This document shows, piece after piece, positions 3,593-44,702 of a DNA stretch of 64,000 bases. The DNA comes from Leptolinea tardivitalis (GTDB taxonomy: Bacteria; Chloroflexota; Anaerolineae; Anaerolineales; Anaerolineaceae). The notes beneath the pieces were generated by a model. The model did not search any database and was not told the DNA's origin. It saw only the letters and a program-made list of their open reading frames with translations. The position numbers and the translations under genes were made by a program. The stretch covers positions 62,001 to 126,000 of the forward strand of contig NZ_BBYA01000012.1 of the NCBI RefSeq assembly GCF_001050275.1. Reading direction: 5' to 3'. Position 1 is the stretch's first letter. Each line of letters opens with the position of its first letter.

Positions 3593-4648
3593 TCAATAGA
3601 ATCCAATCCGATGATCGGTCTCTTTTTTAATATGAAAAACCGGTTCGTATTCTGGAATTGATTTGCCCCAGGCGGCTACCTGGTTATTGCCGCGTTTCCT
3701 GGCCTGGTAGAGGGCATGATCGCCATTATTAATAAATTCTTCCAACGACCGGACGGAGGGGTCCAAACCGACCACCCCCAGACTGATGGTAACGGGCAGT
3801 GGGACGGAATCGACCTCAAATGGGAAATCGGCGATCCGCAGGCGCAGGCGTTCAGCGAGTGACTGGGCATACCTGAGGGTGGTTTCAGGCAGCAGGATGA
3901 GCAATTCTTCACCACCCATCCGCACCCGGATGTCTGAGTCGCGCAGTTCTTTATTGAAAATCCGTGATATTTCCATCAATACCCGGTCGCCGGTGTGAGC
4001 GCCGTGCATCTTGTTCAGGTTGTTGAAATCATCAATACCCACCAGAATGGCGCTCAGGGGGCGGTTGTAACGTTTTGAGCGCTTAAATTCCGCTTCGGCA
4101 ATTTCAAAGAAATATCTGCGGCTCGAAAGGCCGGTCATACCATCTGCAGATGTGGATTGTTGAAGCAGACGTTCATCTTCCACCAGTTTCTGCCGCGAGC
4201 GGATATTCGAAATCACCACTCCGGTATAAACAGACAACCTGTGCCCGATTTCCAGAATCTCTAGATCGGATGCAGGCACGCCGCCGGTTTGGATGGCCAG
4301 AACACCCATGAGATCGTCTTCGTTGGCAATGGCAAAGACCGGGTTGTCCGTGAGGTCTGATGGACGTTTTCCCGTCAGTATGTCACGGGCTTGCTGGATC
4401 AACACCTGGGAAACCTCCGGCGGCACACGCGGGTTGACAGAAAGGATCAGGTCACCCATCAGGGAAATATAGGTGGTTTTATTCGTCTGGAAGACGGTGG
4501 AAAAAATCTTGTTAATTATCTGTATAGCTTCTGTTTCTGTCTTACAGTGAGCCAATTGAGCCAATGTATCGAATACCTGTGCATAGTATTCAGAAGGTTG
4601 TTTCAATATTAATTTTGAATTATGTCTTGGATTTACTTGTGTTTGCAT
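3593..4648 (-). CDS. Diguanylate cyclase (GAF-like sensor + GGDEF)
   Basis: This 351-residue protein should make cyclic di-GMP from two GTP. The N-terminal 150 residues look like a divergent GAF-type sensory domain, and the C-terminal 170 residues are a GGDEF domain starting near DGMTGLSSRRYFFE. The active-site loop reads GGEEL (residues 245-249), a functional variant of GGDEF. An RDSD inhibitory I-site lies exactly five residues before it, so product feedback inhibition is likely. No transmembrane segments or signal peptide are apparent in the chosen form. The open frame reaches 4861, but the ATG at 4648 has GGAGAG just upstream, and the extra N-terminal residues in the longer form look non-coding. 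It stands alone between long intergenic regions. Confidence 0.88.
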   Translation of the reverse strand: MQTQVNPRHNSKLILKQPSEYYAQVFDTLAQLAHCKTETEAIQIINKIFSTVFQTNKTTYISLMGDLILSVNPRVPPEVSQVLIQQARDILTGKRPSDLTDNPVFAIANEDDLMGVLAIQTGGVPASDLEILEIGHRLSVYTGVVISNIRSRQKLVEDERLLQQSTSADGMTGLSSRRYFFEIAEAEFKRSKRYNRPLSAILVGIDDFNNLNKMHGAHTGDRVLMEISRIFNKELRDSDIRVRMGGEELLILLPETTLRYAQSLAERLRLRIADFPFEVDSVPLPVTISLGVVGLDPSVRSLEEFINNGDHALYQARKRGNNQVAAWGKSIPEYEPVFHIKKETDHRIGFY

Positions 4649-5281
4649 AAGACTCTCCAATCCTGGTGTTTTCTTCCTAATGATAAGGAATTTCAGTCCG
4701 GCACATCCGGCAAAATCGGCATTGGCATCATCTCCAGAGGCCGATACAACCCCTTCTTTCCAATGAGACATTCCTGCAGCATTAAAGAAAAGAAGGCAGC
4801 CCGGATAACTCCGGGGAGGATAAAATTCGGATACCTGTAAGATGAGCGGAAAACCCTGCAAAACCCAATAAACCGGAAAACGGAAACTGTGACTGCCTGC
4901 AATTGACCCAATACGTACTCACGCCCCTGAAAATTCGTGATCGGGTGAATAAAAGATCCCTGGCAGACCATTTTACCGATACCTCCGATAATCGCTGTCG
5001 GGAAAGATTAAGAATTAACTATAGAATAGTGCTTTTTCGGGAAAAAAATATTAAGAAAATGCTTATTTTGCCTCAAAAATGCCAAAAAATGGGACAAAAA
5101 TGTAAGCTGCTACGGGGAATTACAGGTAAGGACTTACAATTTTGAAGCGCATGGATAATCTACTACCCGCGACCGACTGAAAAACAAGCCAATACCTACT
5201 GAAATTGATAAAAATATACCAGATGAGTGCCTTTAACCAACCTGGATTCAAATTTGAGACGACAGAAAAATAGGGATTTTC
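4649..5281. other. Long AT-rich intergenic region, no gene recognised
   Basis: This 633-base stretch lies upstream of the diguanylate cyclase and downstream of the MarR gene. Short open frames exist on both strands, but none has a ribosome-binding site or protein-like composition. The part from about 4990 to 5280 is AT-rich. I looked for a GEMM-type c-di-GMP riboswitch in front of the cyclase and did not see its conserved segments. Confidence 0.4.
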
Positions 5282-5749
5282 TTATGACCGCCCTGCGATT
5301 TCCGTCAACCTCATAAGAATCCGTTCCGCCTCTGCCTGTTCATCCGATGACAGGGTTTCCGCCAGTTCATGCACCCATTTTTCATGGAGTCTGATGCATC
5401 CCTGTACCATTTCTTCCCCCTGCCTGGTCAGATGGACCAACCGGATGCGTCGGTCACCGGGGACTTCGTTGCGGGTGACCAACCCCTGCTGTACCATGCG
5501 TTCCACCATTTGACTGGCACCGGCCGGTGTCATTTGCATCAGATCAGATACACCGCTGACTTCACAGGCTCCGCGGTAATGGATATGCAGCATCAAATTC
5601 ATCTGACCGAAAGACAGGCCGGATGTACGGGTGAACTGATTGATGTCATGCATCCATAACCGGGTAATAATAGCTGTCCAATCCATAATGGCTGATTCAA
5701 TCGAGTTCATATCTTTTTCTAATACACCATTCTCTTGACAGGATTCCAT
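5282..5749 (-). CDS. MarR-family transcriptional regulator
   Basis: A 155-residue winged-helix protein of the MarR family, usually a ligand-responsive repressor of a neighbouring transporter. The family pattern is clear: a helical dimerisation segment, then LSFGQMNLMLHIHYRG, the recognition helix region SDLMQMTPAGASQMVERMVQQGLV (middle of the protein), the wing VPGDRRIRLVHLTRQGEEM, and a C-terminal dimerisation helix. It is divergent from an MFS exporter operon, so that operon is the likely target. A promoter with TTGAAT, a 17-base spacer and TATAAT ends six bases before the ATG at 5749, which would give a leaderless message, so I keep that start. A second ATG at 5707 lacks a good ribosome site. 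Confidence 0.88.
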   Translation of the reverse strand: MESCQENGVLEKDMNSIESAIMDWTAIITRLWMHDINQFTRTSGLSFGQMNLMLHIHYRGACEVSGVSDLMQMTPAGASQMVERMVQQGLVTRNEVPGDRRIRLVHLTRQGEEMVQGCIRLHEKWVHELAETLSSDEQAEAERILMRLTEIAGRS

Positions 5750-5755
5750 AGACAG

Positions 5756-5784
5756 ATTATATATAACATTACTTAACTATTCAA
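5756..5784 (-). promoter_or_regulatory. Promoter of the MarR gene (leaderless type)
   Basis: Read on the minus strand, TTGAAT (5779-5784) and TATAAT (5756-5761) are separated by 17 bases. The -10 box ends six bases before the ATG at 5749, so transcription should start at or very near the start codon. No ribosome-binding site is present, which fits a leaderless message. Confidence 0.65.
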
Positions 5785-5796
5785 GATTGTTAACTA
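5773..5796. promoter_or_regulatory. Putative MarR operator, direct repeat TTAACTA
   Basis: Two copies of TTAACTA lie at 5773-5779 and 5790-5796, start-to-start spacing 17. They overlap the spacer and -35 side of the MarR promoter and sit 25 bases upstream of the divergent MFS gene, so one regulator could control both directions. Assignment as the operator is inferred from position only. Confidence 0.4.
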
Positions 5797-5820
5797 AATT
5801 TGGTCTTTGCAGGTAATGAA

Positions 5821-7110
5821 ATGAAATCGGAACAACAAAAAACATCCAAGATAATTCTGGCGGCATCACTGGTTATTGTAATGCTCGGATTTGGTATTGC
5901 CATCCCTTTGATGCCTTTCTATATCATCCATTTTAAAGCATCGGGAAGCGCACTGGGCTTGATGATGTCGCTCTATTCATTGATGCAATTTCTGTTTGCA
6001 CCTATGTGGGGCCGCCTTTCTGACCGGATCGGCCGCAAACCGGTCATCTTGATCGGTATCGGCGGATATTTTCTGGCCTTCATTCTGCAGGGTCTTTCAC
6101 AAAACCTGTTCGAGTTTACGTTTTCCCGAACTCTGGCGGGAATCCTCTCATCGGCTACACTGCCTACGGCAATGGCTTATGTGGCAGATATCACTCCCCT
6201 GGAAGATCGGTCCAAAGGGGTTGGGCTTATGGGAGCCGCCATGGGAATTGGCATGATTTTCGGTCCCATGCTGGGCGGCCTATTGACCGGACTTGCTCTT
6301 CCGATGCCGGAATGGATTCGTCCATTGTTGCAGGTCACCACCGATGTTTCAACCGGAAAATTGATCAACCTTTCCATTCCTTTTTTTGCCAGTGCGCTGC
6401 TGGCTCTGCTGGCTGTTCCCTTCATTATGGTTTTTCTGCCAGAATCACTACCTCCACAGAATCGAAAACATGAGAAGGTTGACCGGCGTACATCACGGTT
6501 GACTTTGCTTTTTGCCGGCTTGAAAGGACCTTCCGGTTTTTTGCTTGCCCTGGCTTTTCTGTTGGCTTTTGCTCTGGCTAATATGGAATCTGTGTTGGCA
6601 TTGTACGGTGGTCAACATTTTTCCATGGGGCCGTCTGAAATCGGACTGCTCATGGGTGGACTGGGGATCATATCCGTCATCGAGCAGGGCGCGGCCATTG
6701 GACCGCTCACGCGGAAGTTCGGGGAAATCCGAATCATCCAGGGCGGCTTGCTGGTCAGCGTGATCGGTTTTCTCGGTATGGCGCTGCTTAAATTCAAAGC
6801 TGGTCTGGTCATCAGTTCGCTGGTGTTCAATATGGGGAATGTATTACTGGCACCTTCGGTTACATCGCTGGTTTCCAAACGGGCAAAGTCAGGGCAGGGT
6901 GAGGCGATGGGATTGAATAATTCCTTTCAGGCGCTCGGTAGGGGCATTGGACCTTTATGGGCTGGCTTTGCCTATGATCTTTATTCAACACTGTCCTTCT
7001 GGTCTGGAGCCCTGATCCAACTTGTCGCCCTTATTTTGACTTTGAAATTTTTCACCGATTCTTTTTCAGAGCGTATTCCGAACTCTGTTCAGGTTGTTGG
7101 AGAGGATTAG
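5821..7110 (+). CDS. MFS transporter (multidrug-exporter type)
   Basis: This 429-residue integral membrane protein of the major facilitator superfamily has about 12 hydrophobic segments. The loop 2-3 signature is clear: GRLSDRIGRKPVILIG near residue 65. The long central loop after the sixth segment (PPQNRKHEKVDRRTSR) is also typical. The closest general type is the TetA/multidrug antiporter group that exports small molecules with proton exchange; the substrate is unknown. The ATG at 5821 has AGGT just upstream; an in-frame TTG at 5800 is less likely. It is divergent from a MarR regulator and is followed after 15 bases by a short-chain dehydrogenase, so the three form a small regulated unit. 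Confidence 0.85.
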   Translation: MKSEQQKTSKIILAASLVIVMLGFGIAIPLMPFYIIHFKASGSALGLMMSLYSLMQFLFAPMWGRLSDRIGRKPVILIGIGGYFLAFILQGLSQNLFEFTFSRTLAGILSSATLPTAMAYVADITPLEDRSKGVGLMGAAMGIGMIFGPMLGGLLTGLALPMPEWIRPLLQVTTDVSTGKLINLSIPFFASALLALLAVPFIMVFLPESLPPQNRKHEKVDRRTSRLTLLFAGLKGPSGFLLALAFLLAFALANMESVLALYGGQHFSMGPSEIGLLMGGLGIISVIEQGAAIGPLTRKFGEIRIIQGGLLVSVIGFLGMALLKFKAGLVISSLVFNMGNVLLAPSVTSLVSKRAKSGQGEAMGLNNSFQALGRGIGPLWAGFAYDLYSTLSFWSGALIQLVALILTLKFFTDSFSERIPNSVQVVGED

Positions 7111-7125
7111 TAGAAAGGAATTGTC

Positions 7126-7995
7126 ATGGGTAGTCTGGATGGAAAAGTTGCCGTAATCACTGGAAGCACCCGCGGGCTTGGTCTGGCCATTGCCCGGGCG
7201 TATGCCGCCGAAGGAGCATTTGTGTTCATTTCCTCCCGGTCTGCAGACAGCGTTAAACAGACAGTCGAATCGATGAATGCGGAAGGGTGGAAGGCTGCCG
7301 GTCTGGCTGTGGATGTGGCTGACCTTCGCCAGGTGCAATTGTTGGCAGATCGCGCCATTCAAACCTGCGGTCATATTGATATCTGGGTTAATAATGCCGG
7401 TACCACCGGTCCATATGGACCGACAGTTCAGATGGATCCATCTGTCTTTGCGGGTGTAGTTCAGACGAATATCATGGGGACGTATCACGGCTCGATAACG
7501 GCCATGCATATCTTCCGCCGGCAGGGATCGGGCAAGTTGATCAATATGCTGGGGATGGGATATAACAAACCGGCCCCCTGGCAGAACGTGTACGGTTCAA
7601 GTAAGGTGTGGATACGGCATTTCACCAAAGCACTGGCGGAAGAAAACAAAGACTGCCCGGGTGTGGGTGTATTTGCCCTTAACCCAGGGATGGTTCTGAC
7701 CGACCTGCTTATTCATAATGATGTTATTGCCGGTTCGGAAGATCGTTTGAAAGCCTTTCCCACTGTGGTGCGGATGTGGGCGAAACCGGGAGAAGTGCCC
7801 GCTCGCAAGGCGGTCTGGCTGGCATCATCGGCTACTGATGGAAAAACCGGTCTGGAAGCCAATGTCTTTACAACCTCCGTCATGCTGATGGGCTTGTTGC
7901 GGGAAGGCCTGCATAAACTGACTGGAAACAAGGCAGATGATTCCGGCGTCAAGATGAAGTCGGTTGCCCCCTGGAAACCTGGATCGGAGAATTGA
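7126..7995 (+). CDS. Short-chain dehydrogenase/reductase (SDR)
   Basis: A 289-residue classical SDR oxidoreductase. The dinucleotide-binding motif TGSTRGLG is at about residues 12-19, NNAG near residue 87, and the catalytic YGSSK (Tyr-x-x-x-Lys) near residue 152. The proline-glycine segment after it, NPGMVLTDLL, is the usual place where the substrate loop begins. The family interconverts alcohols and ketones with NAD(P)H; the substrate is not evident. It lies 15 bases after the MFS exporter gene and 3 bases before a small membrane protein, so it is surely co-transcribed and possibly MarR-regulated. The ATG at 7126 has AGAAAGGAA upstream. Confidence 0.88.
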   Translation: MGSLDGKVAVITGSTRGLGLAIARAYAAEGAFVFISSRSADSVKQTVESMNAEGWKAAGLAVDVADLRQVQLLADRAIQTCGHIDIWVNNAGTTGPYGPTVQMDPSVFAGVVQTNIMGTYHGSITAMHIFRRQGSGKLINMLGMGYNKPAPWQNVYGSSKVWIRHFTKALAEENKDCPGVGVFALNPGMVLTDLLIHNDVIAGSEDRLKAFPTVVRMWAKPGEVPARKAVWLASSATDGKTGLEANVFTTSVMLMGLLREGLHKLTGNKADDSGVKMKSVAPWKPGSEN

Positions 7996-7998
7996 GAA

Positions 7999-8709
7999 AT
8001 GTCGGAAGAATTACGTACTGTTGTAGAAATTACGTTTAATATTTCATACCTGCTGGTTATCTGGACGCTGGTGGTTTTAATGCTGCAGAAGTTTAATGGT
8101 ACAGAGCGGGCAGACCGGCCCGTGATACAACGCATGATTATCATGTTTGCCCTGCTGGCTCTGGGCGATACCGGTCATGTTGGTTTCCGGGTGATCGCTT
8201 ACCTGCGCGGTGGGCTCGAAGCAAATGCCGGACTGGTGGGTCTGGGTTCGTTGAGCACAGCCATCACAGTGACCTTCTTCTACATGATCCTGGTGGATGT
8301 CTGGCGTATACGGTTCGGGAAGAAAATGGACGCCTTTGGCTGGTCACTGATCGCCGCTGGAGTAATCCGTCTGATTGTTTTGTTCTTTCCACAAAACCAG
8401 TGGGAGGCTCTGGTGCCGCCTTATAACTGGAGCCTGCTCAGGAATGCGTTTCTCGTCTATCAGGGTGTGGGAATCATGTACCTGATCCTGCGGGATGCCC
8501 GCAAAAGCGGTGACAGGTCCTTTGAACGTATTGGCTGGATGATCGCCCTGTCGTATCTTTTCTATACACCGGTAATCCTGTGGTCTGCCCGTGTTCCATT
8601 ACTGGGGATGTTGATGATCCCAAAAACCTGTGCCTATCTGGCGGCGGCTTTTATTGCCTACCGGATGGAAGTGGGGAAGAAGCAGACGGCGAGCCCGATT
8701 TTGTCTTAA
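7999..8709 (+). CDS. Polytopic membrane protein of unknown function
   Basis: This 236-residue protein has about seven hydrophobic segments spread along its length, for example YLLVIWTLVVLMLQ, MFALLALGDTGHVGF and YLFYTPVILWSA. Short charged loops separate them, and the tail is cytoplasmic (YRMEVGKKQTAS). I do not recognise the family. It is the last gene of the MFS-SDR operon, starting 3 bases after the SDR stop, with a GGAG a little upstream. An inverted repeat at 8742-8803 closes the unit. A role linked to the exporter or dehydrogenase is only an inference from position. Confidence 0.75.
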   Translation: MSEELRTVVEITFNISYLLVIWTLVVLMLQKFNGTERADRPVIQRMIIMFALLALGDTGHVGFRVIAYLRGGLEANAGLVGLGSLSTAITVTFFYMILVDVWRIRFGKKMDAFGWSLIAAGVIRLIVLFFPQNQWEALVPPYNWSLLRNAFLVYQGVGIMYLILRDARKSGDRSFERIGWMIALSYLFYTPVILWSARVPLLGMLMIPKTCAYLAAAFIAYRMEVGKKQTASPILS

Positions 8710-8741
8710 TGGCTTAAAGAGATGGAAATAACCCTTCATAG

Positions 8742-8803
8742 GGGCAAAGCATCCGGAATGAGACCTGTCTGAAGAGGTTTACTTTACTCCGGATACTTTG
8801 CCC
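8742..8803. terminator. Inverted repeat between convergent genes, probable bidirectional terminator
   Basis: GGGCAAAGCATCCGGA at 8742-8757 pairs with TCCGGATACTTTGCCC at 8788-8803, 16 bases with one mismatch and a 30-base loop. It separates the membrane-protein gene from the convergent Ig-like gene. There is no strong T-run, so termination efficiency is uncertain. Confidence 0.5.
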
Positions 8804-8825
8804 TTACCTGCCTGTCATATTGTTT

Positions 8826-10199
8826 TTAAGGTTTAATTGGAACCAGTTTTGTTGGCACAATCAGAGTCAATTTGGGTTTGATGGGTTTGAGCGGCGCAGA
8901 AGGTGTTTCCCCTTCCTCCGGGAGTGCAACATTGATCAACACCCAGAAGGCATTACTTCCATTCGGCTGAATTCCAAAAACCGCACCGCCGGGAGCCCGC
9001 ATCTTAAAATAGCCCTGATACGATCCAGGATTTTCCGGTGCCGTCAATGAGACGGACACATCCAGATTGCCGTTAGGTGGCACGCTGGCATTTGTTAATT
9101 TGGAGGCCGCCTGTGCCCCCATGGCATCGCCAGACAGGAACACAAGCCGGTAATCTGTGGTCCAGGTGCAGGTGCCGATATTCTTCAGGCGCCATACCTT
9201 TTTAAAAGCAGCTCCCGGCTCAAATGTGGTATTGTCTGGCACGGTAATATCGGCGACAAACCCCGCCAGATTCGTACAGCCGGATGGAGAGTTCGTTACG
9301 GTAACAGTCGGCTGGATGGTGGGTTTGCCTGCGGCCGGCGCCTTTTTCTCAATGACCAGACTCTTAATCATGGCGTCCAACGAAGCCAGACTGGGGGAGA
9401 AGGAATTCGGCTGTTCAGCATTCAACTGTTTCTGGATGTAATCAATATAGGCCGGGTAATTGGACTGGAACTGGCCATAATCTTCCTGCATACGGGCCAG
9501 GCCGTCGTCCCCTTCCAGGGCTGCATGGTTGACCGGCAGCACCGCACTGACGTAATAGGCGCCGTCATCCGTCAATCCCTGATACGTGTAAAAGAGCCGG
9601 CTGTTGTCGAACGGCCAGGGTTGTTCGCCGTACTGGGTAATGTACCGAATCCCGCTGCCGTTCTGGAATTTGACAGATTCCAGGTTGGCACGCATCAGCT
9701 GGACGGCCGGTTCGCCCAGCAGCATGGGCAGGTCACCGGCCGGGTTGGCCGTTAGTGAACTGAGCAATTGTTTCAATTTGTCTGCCTGCCGGTTGACGGA
9801 TTCACCGCCCAGATCTTTAAGATCCTGCAGGGCGAAAACTGTAATCCGGGGTTTCAGTTGAGAAATGGCGGCATAATTCTGGAATTCAAACTGGTCCAAT
9901 TTCGGGGTAATGGGGTTGTTGACATCCAGGTTCTTATCCAGTGTCGAACCGGTTACTTTGCTGGCTACGGAAGAGATGTAGTAAAAAGAGATATCGTCAT
10001 ATTGCATGAAATAGCGGGTGGGGGCTTCGACTGTGGGTGTGGGAGTGGGAGTGGAATCGGTCTGGTTCCTCTGGTCAGGATAACCCACAGGATGCCCATT
10101 CTCATACTCACCGGGCAGGTTGAAGCCGGAAAGCAGGCCTCCGATGATGGTTCCGATAAAGAGAATGGATAACACTTTTCTGGCTGAAGCCGTATTCAT
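8826..10199 (-). CDS. Secreted or membrane-anchored protein with NBR1-Ig-like domain
   Basis: This 457-residue protein starts with a hydrophobic signal or anchor (VLSILFIGTIIGGLLSGF). A low-complexity PTPTPT linker near residue 50 follows, of the kind common in Chloroflexota surface proteins, and then about 230 residues of unknown fold. Residues of about 300-410 form an Ig-like beta domain of the NBR1 type, with the signature FKKVWRLKNIGTCTWTTDY and LTAPENPGSYQGYFKM. In bacteria this domain is usually extracellular and its role is poorly known. The ATG at 10199 has GAGAGGCG upstream; the longer frame from 10214 would start inside that site. It is probably a cell-surface protein; nothing nearby suggests a partner. 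Confidence 0.75.
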   Translation of the reverse strand: MNTASARKVLSILFIGTIIGGLLSGFNLPGEYENGHPVGYPDQRNQTDSTPTPTPTVEAPTRYFMQYDDISFYYISSVASKVTGSTLDKNLDVNNPITPKLDQFEFQNYAAISQLKPRITVFALQDLKDLGGESVNRQADKLKQLLSSLTANPAGDLPMLLGEPAVQLMRANLESVKFQNGSGIRYITQYGEQPWPFDNSRLFYTYQGLTDDGAYYVSAVLPVNHAALEGDDGLARMQEDYGQFQSNYPAYIDYIQKQLNAEQPNSFSPSLASLDAMIKSLVIEKKAPAAGKPTIQPTVTVTNSPSGCTNLAGFVADITVPDNTTFEPGAAFKKVWRLKNIGTCTWTTDYRLVFLSGDAMGAQAASKLTNASVPPNGNLDVSVSLTAPENPGSYQGYFKMRAPGGAVFGIQPNGSNAFWVLINVALPEEGETPSAPLKPIKPKLTLIVPTKLVPIKP

Positions 10200-40076: not shown

Positions 40077-41180
40077 GTGAAATTTTCCTTCCTGCGCAAT
40101 GTAGCCTTCAAAGGTCTGGTGATCTTCTTGATGTTGACCGTGATCATTGGCGATATTCCTGCCAGTTCACTCGGTCAGCTTTCCATCTATAACCATCTGG
40201 TTCCCGGAAGGCCGCGATTTCCCTTTGGAGAAACCCCTCAGCGTTCCTATAACTTAAGCCTTTACAACCTGGAGGCCATGTTTCAATCGCACGAAATAGA
40301 AGGAGAAGCCAATTCGGGGAAGGAATATCGTGTGATCGTACTGGGAGATTCGTCCGTCTGGGGAACACTGCTCAAACCGGAGGAAACCCTGACCGGGCGT
40401 TTGAACGCTCTATCCCTGCAGCAATGCGGGAAACCGGTGCGGTTTTTTAACCTGGGATACCCGACCATCTCCCTGACCAAAGATGTATTGATCTTGCAGC
40501 GCGCCATGCAGGAAAAGCCAGATTTGGTGATCTGGGTCACCACACTCGAAGCCTTTCCAGTCAATAAACAATACGCCTCCCCGCTGGCAGAAAACAACCG
40601 GGCGCTGGTTGAACCTATTCTGGGAGGTTCCGGCAAGGCCGCAGAAGAGCCGGTCTCCTTCTGGGGTACAACTCTCTTTGGCCGCCGCCGTGAATTTGCT
40701 GATTGGGCGCGGCTGCAGCTTTACGGCATCCCCTGGGCAGCCACCAGAGTTGACCAGGATTACCCGGACCATTTCACCCCGGCGGACATTGACCTGGAAG
40801 CGGACGACACCTACTATGATTTGAAACCGGGCAGCGACCTTAAATCAGCGCTTTCATGGAATGTTCTTCAAAAGGGTATGGATCTGGCCGCCCGGTCAGG
40901 CATACCGGTTCTACTGGTAAACGAACCCATATTGATTTCCAATGGCGAGAACAGCCAGATTCGTTACAATTTTTATTACCCCCGCTGGGTATACGATGCC
41001 TACCGTACAAACCTGCAGGAATTGACCGACTCGTCTGATTGGCCCTATCTGGATGCCTGGGATTTGATCCCCATGGACCAATTTACAAACAGCGCAATTC
41101 ATCTCACACCAAAGGCAGAAGCCAATCTGGCTGCGGTTATCGGGGGAAAACTTACCTGTATTCCATGCGATAAAAAATAA
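40077..41180 (+). CDS. Membrane-anchored SGNH/GDSL-like hydrolase
   Basis: A 367-residue protein with an N-terminal anchor (GLVIFLMLTVIIGDIPASSLG). It has an SGNH-hydrolase-like pattern: block I is VIVLGDSSVWGTLL near residue 88 (the Ser of GDS), FNLGYPTIS follows near residue 123 (block II Gly), and the last block is SAIHLTPKAEANLA near residue 345, with the His present but Ser where the catalytic Asp is expected. It is probably extracytoplasmic and may act on cell-surface acyl or acetyl groups, as many membrane SGNH proteins do. The GTG start directly follows a TATAAT box, so the message is probably leaderless. Its neighbours give no clue. Confidence 0.65.
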   Translation: MKFSFLRNVAFKGLVIFLMLTVIIGDIPASSLGQLSIYNHLVPGRPRFPFGETPQRSYNLSLYNLEAMFQSHEIEGEANSGKEYRVIVLGDSSVWGTLLKPEETLTGRLNALSLQQCGKPVRFFNLGYPTISLTKDVLILQRAMQEKPDLVIWVTTLEAFPVNKQYASPLAENNRALVEPILGGSGKAAEEPVSFWGTTLFGRRREFADWARLQLYGIPWAATRVDQDYPDHFTPADIDLEADDTYYDLKPGSDLKSALSWNVLQKGMDLAARSGIPVLLVNEPILISNGENSQIRYNFYYPRWVYDAYRTNLQELTDSSDWPYLDAWDLIPMDQFTNSAIHLTPKAEANLAAVIGGKLTCIPCDKK

Positions 41181-41347: not shown

Positions 41348-43894
41348 ATGGAGATGGAGAAAACATCTGCGATGAAAAAAGATTCAGTATCTCTATTCGC
41401 TGGAAGGATTCCAGCCGTCCTGGCCGTGCTTTGCATTTTCATCACAATTTTTGGCCTATTTTTGCTCGAAAAAACGCTGGTATCTGATTCCCTGAACAGT
41501 ATCACAATATGGGCTGCCCGAATTTTGATCGTCCTCGGAGCAGCGGGGTCGGCTGCCAGCTGCCTGGTCATGCGGGCAAACGAACGGAAAACAGACGCAC
41601 AAACCAAAGAGCTCATCTCGATGAGTGTCTCACTGGCTGAGGTCGATACCCCTGCACTGGCGTCATCCCTTTCTGCGCTTACCACTGGCGACCTCACCCA
41701 TCGGGTTCATATTGAAACACCGCTTTTAGATCTGTCTGATTCAGTCGCCCGCGGACGGAATCTCCAGAGTTCCATGAATGCCATCATCTCCAGTCTGCGC
41801 GAATGTGCCCGGTCATACAACTGGATCACTGACGAGCCCTGTAAAAGAATGTTCTATAAAGGCACAGATTCCTTTCAGGAAGGATTATCCGCCGGTGATG
41901 CCATGGGCAATCTGGTGGGCAGCCGGGCGAAGGTGATGGTTTCCAGCGCACTGCATCAAGATAATTTGAAATTGCGCATTAACGGGTTTACCACATCACT
42001 GACCACCAATTTCCCCGGGGCTCGAATTGTTTATATTCTTGATTCCTCGGGAAAAGATGAAAATCAGATCATTGCAGAAATCCAATCCGTGATTGATCAG
42101 CATCCGGATCTGGCCGGTTTCTATGGGACGGATATCGAATCGTTCATGCCAATGGTTCACTACGTCAAAAAGAGCCGAATGGAAGGCAAGATCAAGATCG
42201 TCAGCCATGACCTTTCCGATGAAATTGCCCGGCTTATTCAGGATGGTGCAATATCCGTCAGTGTCTGCCAGAATCCCTTTGCCCAGGGATATGACACAGT
42301 TGTGCATCTGTACAATCATCTGGTCGGCGGGTGGACTCCGCAAGTGGAACGTTTGTTGATTAAACCGGATATTGTCAACCGGGAAAACCTGAATAAATAT
42401 TGGAAAATCGGCCAGGGAGCTTTTCAATCTGAAGAAGCCATTGCCCACCGGCCGGTAGCATTGCCGAATGCCAACCATAAACCCATCAAGATTGCCATGG
42501 TTGGCGCAGATTTTGCCTTTTTTGATGATGTCCGTGAAGGTGTTGAAGTTGCCTCTAAAGAACTGAAAGCGTTTAATGCGAAAGCTGACTGGCTGTTGCC
42601 GCCGGGAACTCGTACCAAACATGGAATTTCCGTTTCATCTGAAATCTACAGCCCATTCCTCGAGAAACTGGCTGCCAGCGGCTACGATGCCATCGGGGTT
42701 ATGGTTGCTGATTCTGAAATCAATAAAACCATCAATAAGCTGGTGGCAAAGGGTGTCCCCATTGCCACATTCAATGCCGAAACTAGCAGTATGCGAAGTT
42801 TGATGCTGATGTTGGTAGACCGCGCCCGCCAATTATTGGAGGCCAGCGAGATTCTGAATACGGTTTCACGCGATGCCCAGCATGCCACAGACACAGTGGC
42901 CATCACCATCCAGCAGATCACCAAGTCGGTGAATGATGAAGCGGCTATGATGAGCCGGGCCAACAATAGTGTACAAACCATTGTGGATAACATCCAGCAG
43001 ATCAATCGCGGAGCTGTGGAACAATCGCAGGCGGCGGAAAGCGCCGTAGCCGCTTCGATGCAAATCTCCAAAGCCGTAGAGCAAACCTCTGAAGCTATTT
43101 CAAGAGTAGCCAGAACAGCAGACCATTCTGTTGAGGTGGCACGTGAAGGGGCCGCCTCTGTCCGACAGGCATTGGATCAGATGGGCAGCATCCAACAGGC
43201 GGTGGAAACGTCTGCCGGTTCCATCCGCTTGATGGATCAGTATTCCAAGCAGATCGGTGAAATTGTGGAGACTATCCGCGATATTGCCGATCAGACCAAC
43301 CTGCTGGCATTAAACGCCGCCATTGAAGCCGCCCGCGCTGGAGAACAGGGACGTGGTTTTGCTGTGGTGGCCGGTGAGGTGCGTAAATTGGCGGAAAAAT
43401 CTGGCGAAGCCACCCGCGAAATCGCCACCATTGTTCAGAATACCCAGAAAAACATTGCTGAAACGGTAACGTCTATGCAGACTGCCATCGAACGAGTGAC
43501 CAGGGGAAGCAGCCTGGCTGCCAGTTCCGGAGAGGCACTGGAAAAACTCGTCACCTCGGCGGCGGAAATGCAGTCTCAATCGGCGGAAGCCAGCAAGGCT
43601 AATTCTGACATGGTTAGCGTGATGGAATCGTTGAATACAGCCATCGAACGGGTCTCCGCCGTAATCGAACAAAACAGCGCCTCTTCGGCAGAGATCAGTC
43701 AAAATGCCTCCAACACGCTGGAAATCATGGAATCGGTGGCGGCTTTCAGCGAAGAGAATGCGGCATCATCCGAAGAAATTGCCGCCTCCACCATTGAAGT
43801 CAATGAGAAGGTTGCCCAGATGGCCGGGTCCATCCAGAAGTTGGGTTTGATCGCCCGCGAAATGCAGATCTCTACCGCAAATTTCAAACTGTAG
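41348..43894 (+). CDS. Methyl-accepting chemotaxis protein with an apparently circularly permuted sugar-binding domain
   Basis: An 848-residue chemoreceptor. Two N-terminal helices (residues 22-41 and 53-75) form a membrane hairpin, a HAMP-like [10 protein letters not shown] follows, and then come two halves of a type-1 periplasmic-binding fold in reversed order. Residues about 168-345 look like a C-terminal half ([19 protein letters not shown] to the PFAQGYD region), and residues 378-480 look like an N-terminal half ([18 protein letters not shown] to [12 protein letters not shown]). The signalling domain has the standard tip [20 protein letters not shown]. With only two N-terminal helices, the sensor should be in the cytoplasm. 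There is no CheR-binding pentapeptide. AAGGGG lies before the ATG at 41348. The signal sensed may be an intracellular sugar. Confidence 0.85.
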
Positions 43895-43948: not shown

Positions 43949-44096
43949 TTTCGAAAAATTTGTAACTGGCTTTTTGTATAAACATTTACCCCGGTAAACA
44001 CTTTTCATTTCTCTTTTCGGATTCTATAATAGGCACATATTTGTGGTGATGTACAGGTGATGATTAAGCGGGGAGATCAATTATTCCGGTAGAGTG

Positions 44097-44702
44097 ATGG
44101 AACAGGGGAGCGTATTTTTGGCGCAATTTATGACTCTTTCAGATGGCGTCGAAGTGAATGGCGAAACCATTTCTGTTATCGTGGATGGAATGGCCAATTT
44201 TCGGGATACGGCCATTAAGATCCTGGCGGAAAATGGAATCATCAATCCGCAGGCGGGAGAATGGTATGACCAGCAAGCCTGGTTGAACAGCTTTAAGAAA
44301 ATTTCTTCCGCACTGCACGCTGTTACATTAACCTATATAGGACGAAAGATCCCAGAGAGCGCCAATTTTCCTGTAGAGCTGGATGGTATAGAGGCGGCGT
44401 TGAAGTCTATAGATGTGGCCTATCATATGAATCACCGGCGGAATGGTGAAATTCTTTTTGATTCAGTGACCGGAAAGATGAAAGAAGGGATTGGCCACTA
44501 TTTATACAAACGCATTGCCGTCAATCGAGCGGTGATGGTTTGCCACAATCCGTATCCATGTGATTTTGACCGGGGAATCATCGATGCCGTGGCTTTCAGA
44601 CACAAACCGGTTGGAACGACAAACGTCCGAGTGACTCATGAGGCACCCGATCATTGCCGTAAAAATGGCTATGATTTTTGTACCTACATGGTGGAATGGT
44701 GA
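44097..44702 (+). CDS. Unidentified protein with a Cys-rich C-terminal segment
   Basis: A 201-residue protein with no signal peptide or membrane segment. The last 70 residues hold a striking pattern: VCHNPYPCDFDRGIIDAVA, then VTHEAPDHCRKNGYDFCTYMVEW. Similar Cys-Asn-Pro-Tyr-Pro-Cys plus Cys-x-x-x-Gly-x-x-x-Cys endings occur in sensory proteins with V4R or haem-NO-binding-like folds, where they may bind metal or a small ligand. I do not recognise the family with certainty. It follows the chemoreceptor by about 200 bases, separated by a terminator. The ATG at 44097 has GGTAGAG upstream; a GTG one codon earlier is possible. Confidence 0.6.
   Translation: MEQGSVFLAQFMTLSDGVEVNGETISVIVDGMANFRDTAIKILAENGIINPQAGEWYDQQAWLNSFKKISSALHAVTLTYIGRKIPESANFPVELDGIEAALKSIDVAYHMNHRRNGEILFDSVTGKMKEGIGHYLYKRIAVNRAVMVCHNPYPCDFDRGIIDAVAFRHKPVGTTNVRVTHEAPDHCRKNGYDFCTYMVEW

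Follow-up and report, generated by a model that had tools for sequence, protein, structure and literature searches.

A chemoreceptor of Leptolinea tardivitalis with a probably circularly permuted sugar-binding fold that should lie on the cytoplasmic side of the membrane

The window is the whole stretch of 64,000 nucleotides from Leptolinea tardivitalis that was analysed. On its forward strand it contains a gene coding for a chemoreceptor (MCP), which is composed of the following features.

41348–43894, forward strand: whole chemoreceptor gene, 848 amino acids (homologous stop-to-stop frames of relatives comprise 844–867 residues)
41408–41464, forward strand: membrane helix 1, residues 21–39, hydropathy peak 2.81
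41516–41572, forward strand: membrane helix 2, residues 57–75, after a loop of about 17 residues, hydropathy peak 1.86
41600–41824, forward strand: HAMP-like stretch, residues 85–159, with GDLTHRV at residue 114 (identified by eye)
41825–42397, forward strand: half A, the C-lobe plus return segment of a type-1 binding fold, residues 160–350
42398–42484, forward strand: linker between the former C-terminus and the former N-terminus, residues 351–379
42485–42784, forward strand: half B, the opening four N-lobe strands up to the hinge, residues 380–479
42788–43891, forward strand: MCP helical hairpin, residues 481–848, following half B directly

The reading frame, the quoted motifs (YKGTDSF at residue 170, KIAMVGADF at 381 and ATFNAET at 473) and the domain order are all as given in the preliminary description of this locus. 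The Pfam profile MCPsignal (PF00015) matched residues 590–772 with an E-value of 2e-42, and the tip of the MCP hairpin is located near residue 668, with the tip motif at residues 660–685. The best stretch of the Peripla_BP_4 match comprises residues 165–327, which correspond to positions 93–256 of the 258 profile positions. For HAMP, no Pfam match was obtained in the window protein; sub-threshold matches occurred in five of the 12 relatives scanned, the best of them reaching 24.8 bits at a cut-off of 25.

The neighbours of the receptor gene include a 367-residue protein (40077–41177) and a 202-residue protein (44094–44699). Neither gave a Pfam match at an E-value of 0.001, and frames resembling both in size and direction are present in two other Leptolinea. 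Further neighbours in the window are an RVT_3 (RNase-H-like) protein, a response regulator-GAF-PAS-GGDEF protein and a PAS-HD protein; no sugar operon was seen beside the receptor in the window.

In the encoded order, the strongest Pfam segment corresponds to the latter part of the Peripla_BP_4 profile only, as would also be found if two unrelated half-domains had met by chance or if the contig were wrongly assembled. Four solute-binding proteins from relatives, either unpermuted or tandem, served as blastp subjects for 15 receptors. For the window protein, residues 156–356 matched residues 156–355 of the unpermuted protein L021 (34% identity, E 3e-36), and residues 378–489 matched its residues 66–171 (32% identity, E 9e-15); these E-values refer to the subject set of four proteins. 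All 15 receptors matched the single-copy proteins L021 and L047 twice, the order of the two matches being inverted, with best-subject E-values of at most 1e-12 for half B and at most 1e-24 for half A. The closest resemblance was observed for the receptors L036–L039, whose best identities were 45–51% in half A and 47–53% in half B, in a comparison that took in L021, L047 and L041, not L072 and L073. The preliminary description had proposed that two halves of a binding fold occur in swapped order; both halves do match the same unpermuted proteins in reverse, far beyond chance.

Profile and structure searches gave the same picture. In native order, Peripla_BP_4 matched in two pieces, with 95.8 bits for the whole protein and 103.6 bits for the sensor alone. 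After the window sensor had been de-permuted, a single continuous match to positions 7–256 of 258 resulted, with 116.3 bits. Both lobes of the Peripla_BP_4 fold are thus present, as judged from the re-ordered match and from the structure models described below, and their order is not the usual one with the N-lobe first. Among solved structures, residues from about 160 onwards matched the second half of a Thermotoga glucose-binding protein (E 1e-18), and the later residues gave 6.1 bits against its first half, which by itself is not significant. Re-ordering improved the best match from 1e-18 to 2e-23. This best match, to the Thermotoga proteins, spans only positions 58–264 of the de-permuted query, beginning in the later part of half B; 5hqj and XylFII cover it nearly completely (positions 5–293 and 14–292 of 295). 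Chance resemblance and an assembly artefact were rejected on the basis of the double matches in 15 of 15 receptors, the continuous de-permuted match and the recurrence of the same order in 26 genomes, and their probability is close to negligible.

The position of the cut can be deduced from the motifs. The fourth strand, ATFNAET, has been moved as well; the cut therefore sits at the hinge itself. In unpermuted relatives the new ends would be neighbouring residues (ATFNSE-TAEPNKRLFF in L021), so that the helices leading in and out should be near each other, as far as can be predicted from sequence. Taken as a whole, the sensor is most probably a complete, circularly permuted type-1 (Peripla_BP_4) fold whose two ends adjoin at the first lobe-to-lobe hinge.

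Two AlphaFold2 models were considered. The first, of residues 95–520 of a homologue, has a mean pLDDT of 75.3 and a pTM of 0.69; block means are 73–96 over model residues 71 to 380, and prediction is poor for the HAMP-like part and for the beginning of the last helix. The second, of the L030 sensor alone, is similar (mean 81.0, pTM 0.78), and in both the greater part of the sensor is modelled with confidence. Both are models of homologues of 46–48% identity computed from the same pool of 13 sequences, and are hence not fully independent; they are monomers and carry no inter-lobe error estimate. For the structural comparison, the solved permuted protein TpMglB-2 of Treponema pallidum stood in for RbsB. 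Residues 63/64–374 of the first model aligned with the TpMglB-2 entries 6bgd (Z 20.6, 284 residues, rmsd 3.8) and 5jx2 (Z 20.4, 283 residues, rmsd 3.9). Among the 50 matches listed, 42 of the 48 chains other than TpMglB-2 ended by residue 278, for example 3g1w (Z 24.2, 195 residues) and 3c6q (Z 23.1, 200 residues), and the other six reached into half B with at most 217 residues aligned. The second model aligned with three TpMglB-2 entries (5jx2, 6bgd and 6bgc) over 279–286 residues at an rmsd of 4.0–4.5; among the matches listed for it, 43 of 47 other chains ended by residue 225, four reached into half B, and none exceeded 216 residues. In both models the TpMglB-2 alignments stop just short of the last strand of half B, as is expected if this strand sits elsewhere in TpMglB-2. 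That the two halves form one unit is hence supported by two homologue models, each of which aligns across both halves with a solved permutant.

MCPs are dimers, and a linker of about 30 residues could reach either way. Half A of one chain might pair with half B of its partner, so that the protein would be permuted in sequence while two subunits share the sensor. Such a domain swap is unlikely, since the two monomer models pack both halves within one chain and match TpMglB-2 across both. In addition, the linker sequence is conserved and its length nearly constant, which suits a defined path. The distance from an FW/YW motif to the first strand is 34–36 residues in 26 of the 35 genes, namely those in which the pattern matched. 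The usual linker pattern is W..G.G....S......RP.P, from which the forms with a GGDEF output partly depart, and according to the alignment the linkers of L030–L032 are a few residues longer. The linker looks like a built part and not like a slack tether.

A natural permutation of this fold is already known from TpMglB-2 (Tp0684). TpMglB-2 is described as a monomeric, "Type Ic" circularly permuted glucose-binding lipoprotein in which three N-lobe strands have been moved to the end and which has a fourth lobe crossing (PMC4990184). The window sensor resembles TpMglB-2 in that a type-1 sugar-binding fold has been permuted naturally, the chain crosses between the lobes a fourth time and an extended segment has been added. 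The two differ in that TpMglB-2 is cut between N-lobe strands 3 and 4, whereas four strands are moved and the cut lies at the hinge in the window family. Moreover, TpMglB-2 is an ABC transporter lipoprotein with no output fusion, and its identity to the models in the structural alignments is 11–14%. The Rhodopirellula baltica solute-binding protein 5er3 likewise has its C-lobe before its N-lobe by match coordinates. This suggests that it is also circularly permuted, though its title is silent on this; its cut lies apparently inside the C-lobe and, unlike the window protein, it is no receptor.

The closest solved sequence relatives are CUT2-type proteins, namely the Thermotoga glucose/xylose-binding protein (2h3h, 2qvc, 3c6q), GanP (6gq0) and XylFII (5xsj). 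In contrast to the window sensor, these are unpermuted binding proteins of transporters; according to the structure title, XylFII was solved in complex with part of the sensor LytS. The kinship to LacI suggested earlier was not borne out, as the closest relatives are instead binding proteins of CUT2-type sugar ABC transporters. Like the window receptor, the hybrid two-component sensor BT1754 (2x7x) contains a sugar-binding type-1 domain in a signalling receptor. Its fructose-binding domain is periplasmic by title, whereas the window sensor is predicted to be cytoplasmic, and we know of no permutation in BT1754. Membrane-anchored MCPs with the sensor on the inside are known in the form of the Aer-type PAS receptors. 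These sense with a PAS domain, the window receptor with a permuted sugar-binding fold.

Membrane topology was assessed with a 19-residue Kyte-Doolittle window on the stop-to-stop frames of 35 distinct genes. The two N-terminal membrane helices of the preliminary description correspond to the sole hydropathy peaks of the window protein, residues 21–39 and 57–75; past the start of its sensor no membrane helix was found, the highest 19-residue mean being 0.99. Each of the 35 genes has two or three peaks reaching 1.3 or more ahead of the sensor; no membrane helix was detected at the sensor end and in the next 60 residues (highest mean 1.13). The claim that no helix separates sensor and signalling domain thus stood in 35 of 35 genes. 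Higher values of 1.5–1.7 occur inside the sensors of L059, L060 and L061, with a maximum of 1.71 in L059, at places where the homologue models show ordinary strands and helices; inside the MCP part, values up to 1.62 (L036) were obtained.

Binding proteins of type-1 fold are normally exported and signal to receptors from outside, which would speak for a sensor outside the cell. Against this, the sensor comes after two hydrophobic segments that are separated by a short loop, and no segment resembling a membrane helix lies between it and the cytoplasmic outputs in any of the 35 genes. On the topology given by the hydropathy scan an external sensor was rejected; it is very improbable. Since the outputs are cytoplasmic by nature and no helix intervenes, the sensor should be on the cytoplasmic side, and the proposed orientation was borne out as far as prediction goes.

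Homologues with the same domain order were sought in several partly overlapping genome sets. At an E-value of 1e-20, seven of 61 genomes of relatives gave a match, six of them permuted and one an unpermuted binding protein (G029). At 1e-30, five of 396 genomes of the class matched, with two permuted genes (G000 and G423), two single binding proteins and one tandem binding protein. In the phylum set five of 400 genomes matched, all permuted. In the family set 12 of 147 matched, ten of them permuted (G1012 with partial genes only) and two unpermuted (G948 and G029). In the class of G490, 15 of 177 genomes matched; these belong to a single genus and are all permuted. The search yielded 35 distinct genes, and every receptor frame with both halves has the order A-B. 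Single binding proteins have the order B-A and the tandem gene L041, also fetched as L020, has the order B-A-B-A. Left out of the 35 were the partial genes at contig ends L018/L033, the pair L034/L075 (probably one gene), L071, L065 (masked letters, A-B order), a hit on G822:C79 and repeat fetches of the same gene; L027, which is cut by a contig end, and L060, in which masked letters break the MCP frame, were kept though incomplete.

A pattern-limited scan beyond Chloroflexota, made with two patterns of the Leptolinea type, gave 12 loci, all titled Leptolinea, Anaerolineae, Anaerolineaceae or Chloroflexi. No gene of the L036–L039 type was among the 12, so that a wider occurrence is possible. 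One scan of viral contigs gave no relative of the window sensor. In 72,556 plasmid records, the window sensor matched one at an E-value of 1e-15. With the sensor of L042, 27 records were matched at 1e-20. Only the record of Leptolinea sp. HRD-7 reaches a query coverage of 80% or more; in the remaining 26 the coverage is 50–61%, all in half A, and the annotated ones among them are named as ABC transporter or substrate-binding proteins. At the locus of L042 itself (G423, 4072–9036), the permuted receptor adjoins a second MCP with an external-looking sensor. By eye, the two MCP signalling domains are nearly identical, as if the output had been copied from the neighbour.

The 35 genes comprise 29 with an MCP output and six (L061, L066, L077, L078, L079 and L080) with a GGDEF domain instead of it (Pfam E-values of 8e-40 to 3e-44). 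The latter stem from five genomes of another class of the phylum. In a tree calculated from the re-ordered modules, all 35 permuted rows lie on one side of a branch with support values of 90/85, which is moderate and was drawn open. The GGDEF rows cluster together (100/100) within the MCP rows, and the enclosing forks have values of 99/95 and 95/81. The root was placed at midpoint for drawing only, and three distant rows of solute-binding proteins have very long branches. Judging from these sequences, there was probably one permutation, followed by one output swap.

The closest unpermuted relatives found are Anaerolineae binding proteins (L021, L047, L072, L073 and the tandem L041). By eye, the unpermuted relatives have export-type N-termini, and ABC transporter genes are their neighbours. 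For L081, Pfam identified a two-domain ATPase and a BPD_transp_2 permease, and for L082 a permease; the transporter neighbours of L041 and L047 were read by eye. Further neighbours are a xylose-isomerase-like barrel (L041), a PfkB kinase plus a LacI regulator (L082), DUF4380 (L041 and L081) and URO-D (L081). L041 (6372–8417) and, in the window genome itself, L040 (contig C10, 1715–3949) are single frames, each with two near-identical tandem solute-binding proteins, that adjoin ABC transporter genes; they could be real or products of assembly.

Several residues are common to permuted and unpermuted rows. The opening Phe and the hinge Asn are present in 40 of 41 rows each and the hinge Glu in all 41; half A has an Arg in 41/41 and, in its late strands, an Asp in 41/41 and a Gln in 40/41. 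These counts refer to 41 of 45 rows, four distant binding proteins of the window genome having been dropped, and the six unpermuted rows include near-copies. In the permuted rows alone, the hinge Asn, the Glu, the Arg, the Asp and the Gln are found in 35 of 35 and the opening Phe in 34 of 35. By homology to ribose-binding protein, we take these six positions to be sugar contacts. Pocket-type columns are thus kept, and the unpermuted relatives have sugar and ABC transporter genes as neighbours; on these grounds the ligand is likely a pentose, a hexose or a polyol.

The window genome's own binding proteins match the sensor weakly (E-values of 1.9e-8 to 1.2e-4), and no close unpermuted counterpart of the sensor was found in this genome. 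This would fit a module that binds nothing and serves as a structural spacer or for protein interaction. The conservation, in the permuted rows, of the residues common with unpermuted binding proteins and the retention of the module with two different outputs argue against this function, which is improbable.

The genome contains one match above cut-off to CheA (PF02895, contig C11) and two to flagellin. For Ornatilinea apprima, flagella and chemotaxis genes are reported (PMC4653792), though the organism is classed as non-motile. A 212-kb plasmid of Leptolinea sp. HRD-7 (AP024711.1) has a layout similar to that of the window by size and direction of the genes, and its receptor is annotated as "hypothetical protein". 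The window contig (G000:C12, 216,541 bases) is similar to this plasmid in its size and in the local arrangement of genes, so that in the window organism, too, the receptor may be located on a plasmid.

With a probability of about 0.78, the gene codes for a chemoreceptor that is anchored in the membrane and responds to an intracellular sugar or sugar-like metabolite. A sugar entering the cleft would cause the lobes to close. The HAMP-like helix leading in and the MCP helix leading out would both be fixed at the hinge; lobe closure would then shift or twist the stalk and change the activity of CheA. The permutation would thereby allow a two-lobed binding protein to be inserted in line into a helical stalk. 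It is plausible to assume that the gene of a binding protein was duplicated in tandem and that the N-half of the first copy and the C-half of the second were lost when it was fused to a receptor. The B-A-B-A arrangement of L041 is as expected of an evolutionary intermediate.

In the open PubMed Central literature searched, no receptor with a permuted sugar sensor was found. Permutation of the type-1 fold as such is known from TpMglB-2; within this literature, the hinge cut, the cytoplasmic place, the fusions to MCP and diguanylate cyclase outputs and the intermediate-like tandem gene appear to be new. We slightly favour the view that permutation at the hinge is an evolved way to place a Venus-flytrap sensor in line in a cytoplasmic stalk, and that it created a portable cassette, used first in CheA-linked receptors and then in diguanylate cyclases, for a direct read-out of internal sugar pools. 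In the window family a binding protein would have been re-ordered, brought inside and wired to chemotaxis and, in relatives, to cyclic-di-GMP output. The family would allow the question of why circular permutation is favoured to be studied in a natural system. It may include an intracellular sugar receptor, and it would provide an in-line sensor cassette ready for use, such as protein engineers assemble by hand. Through the rearrangement, a protein of transport may have become an internal sensor of the plug-in type.
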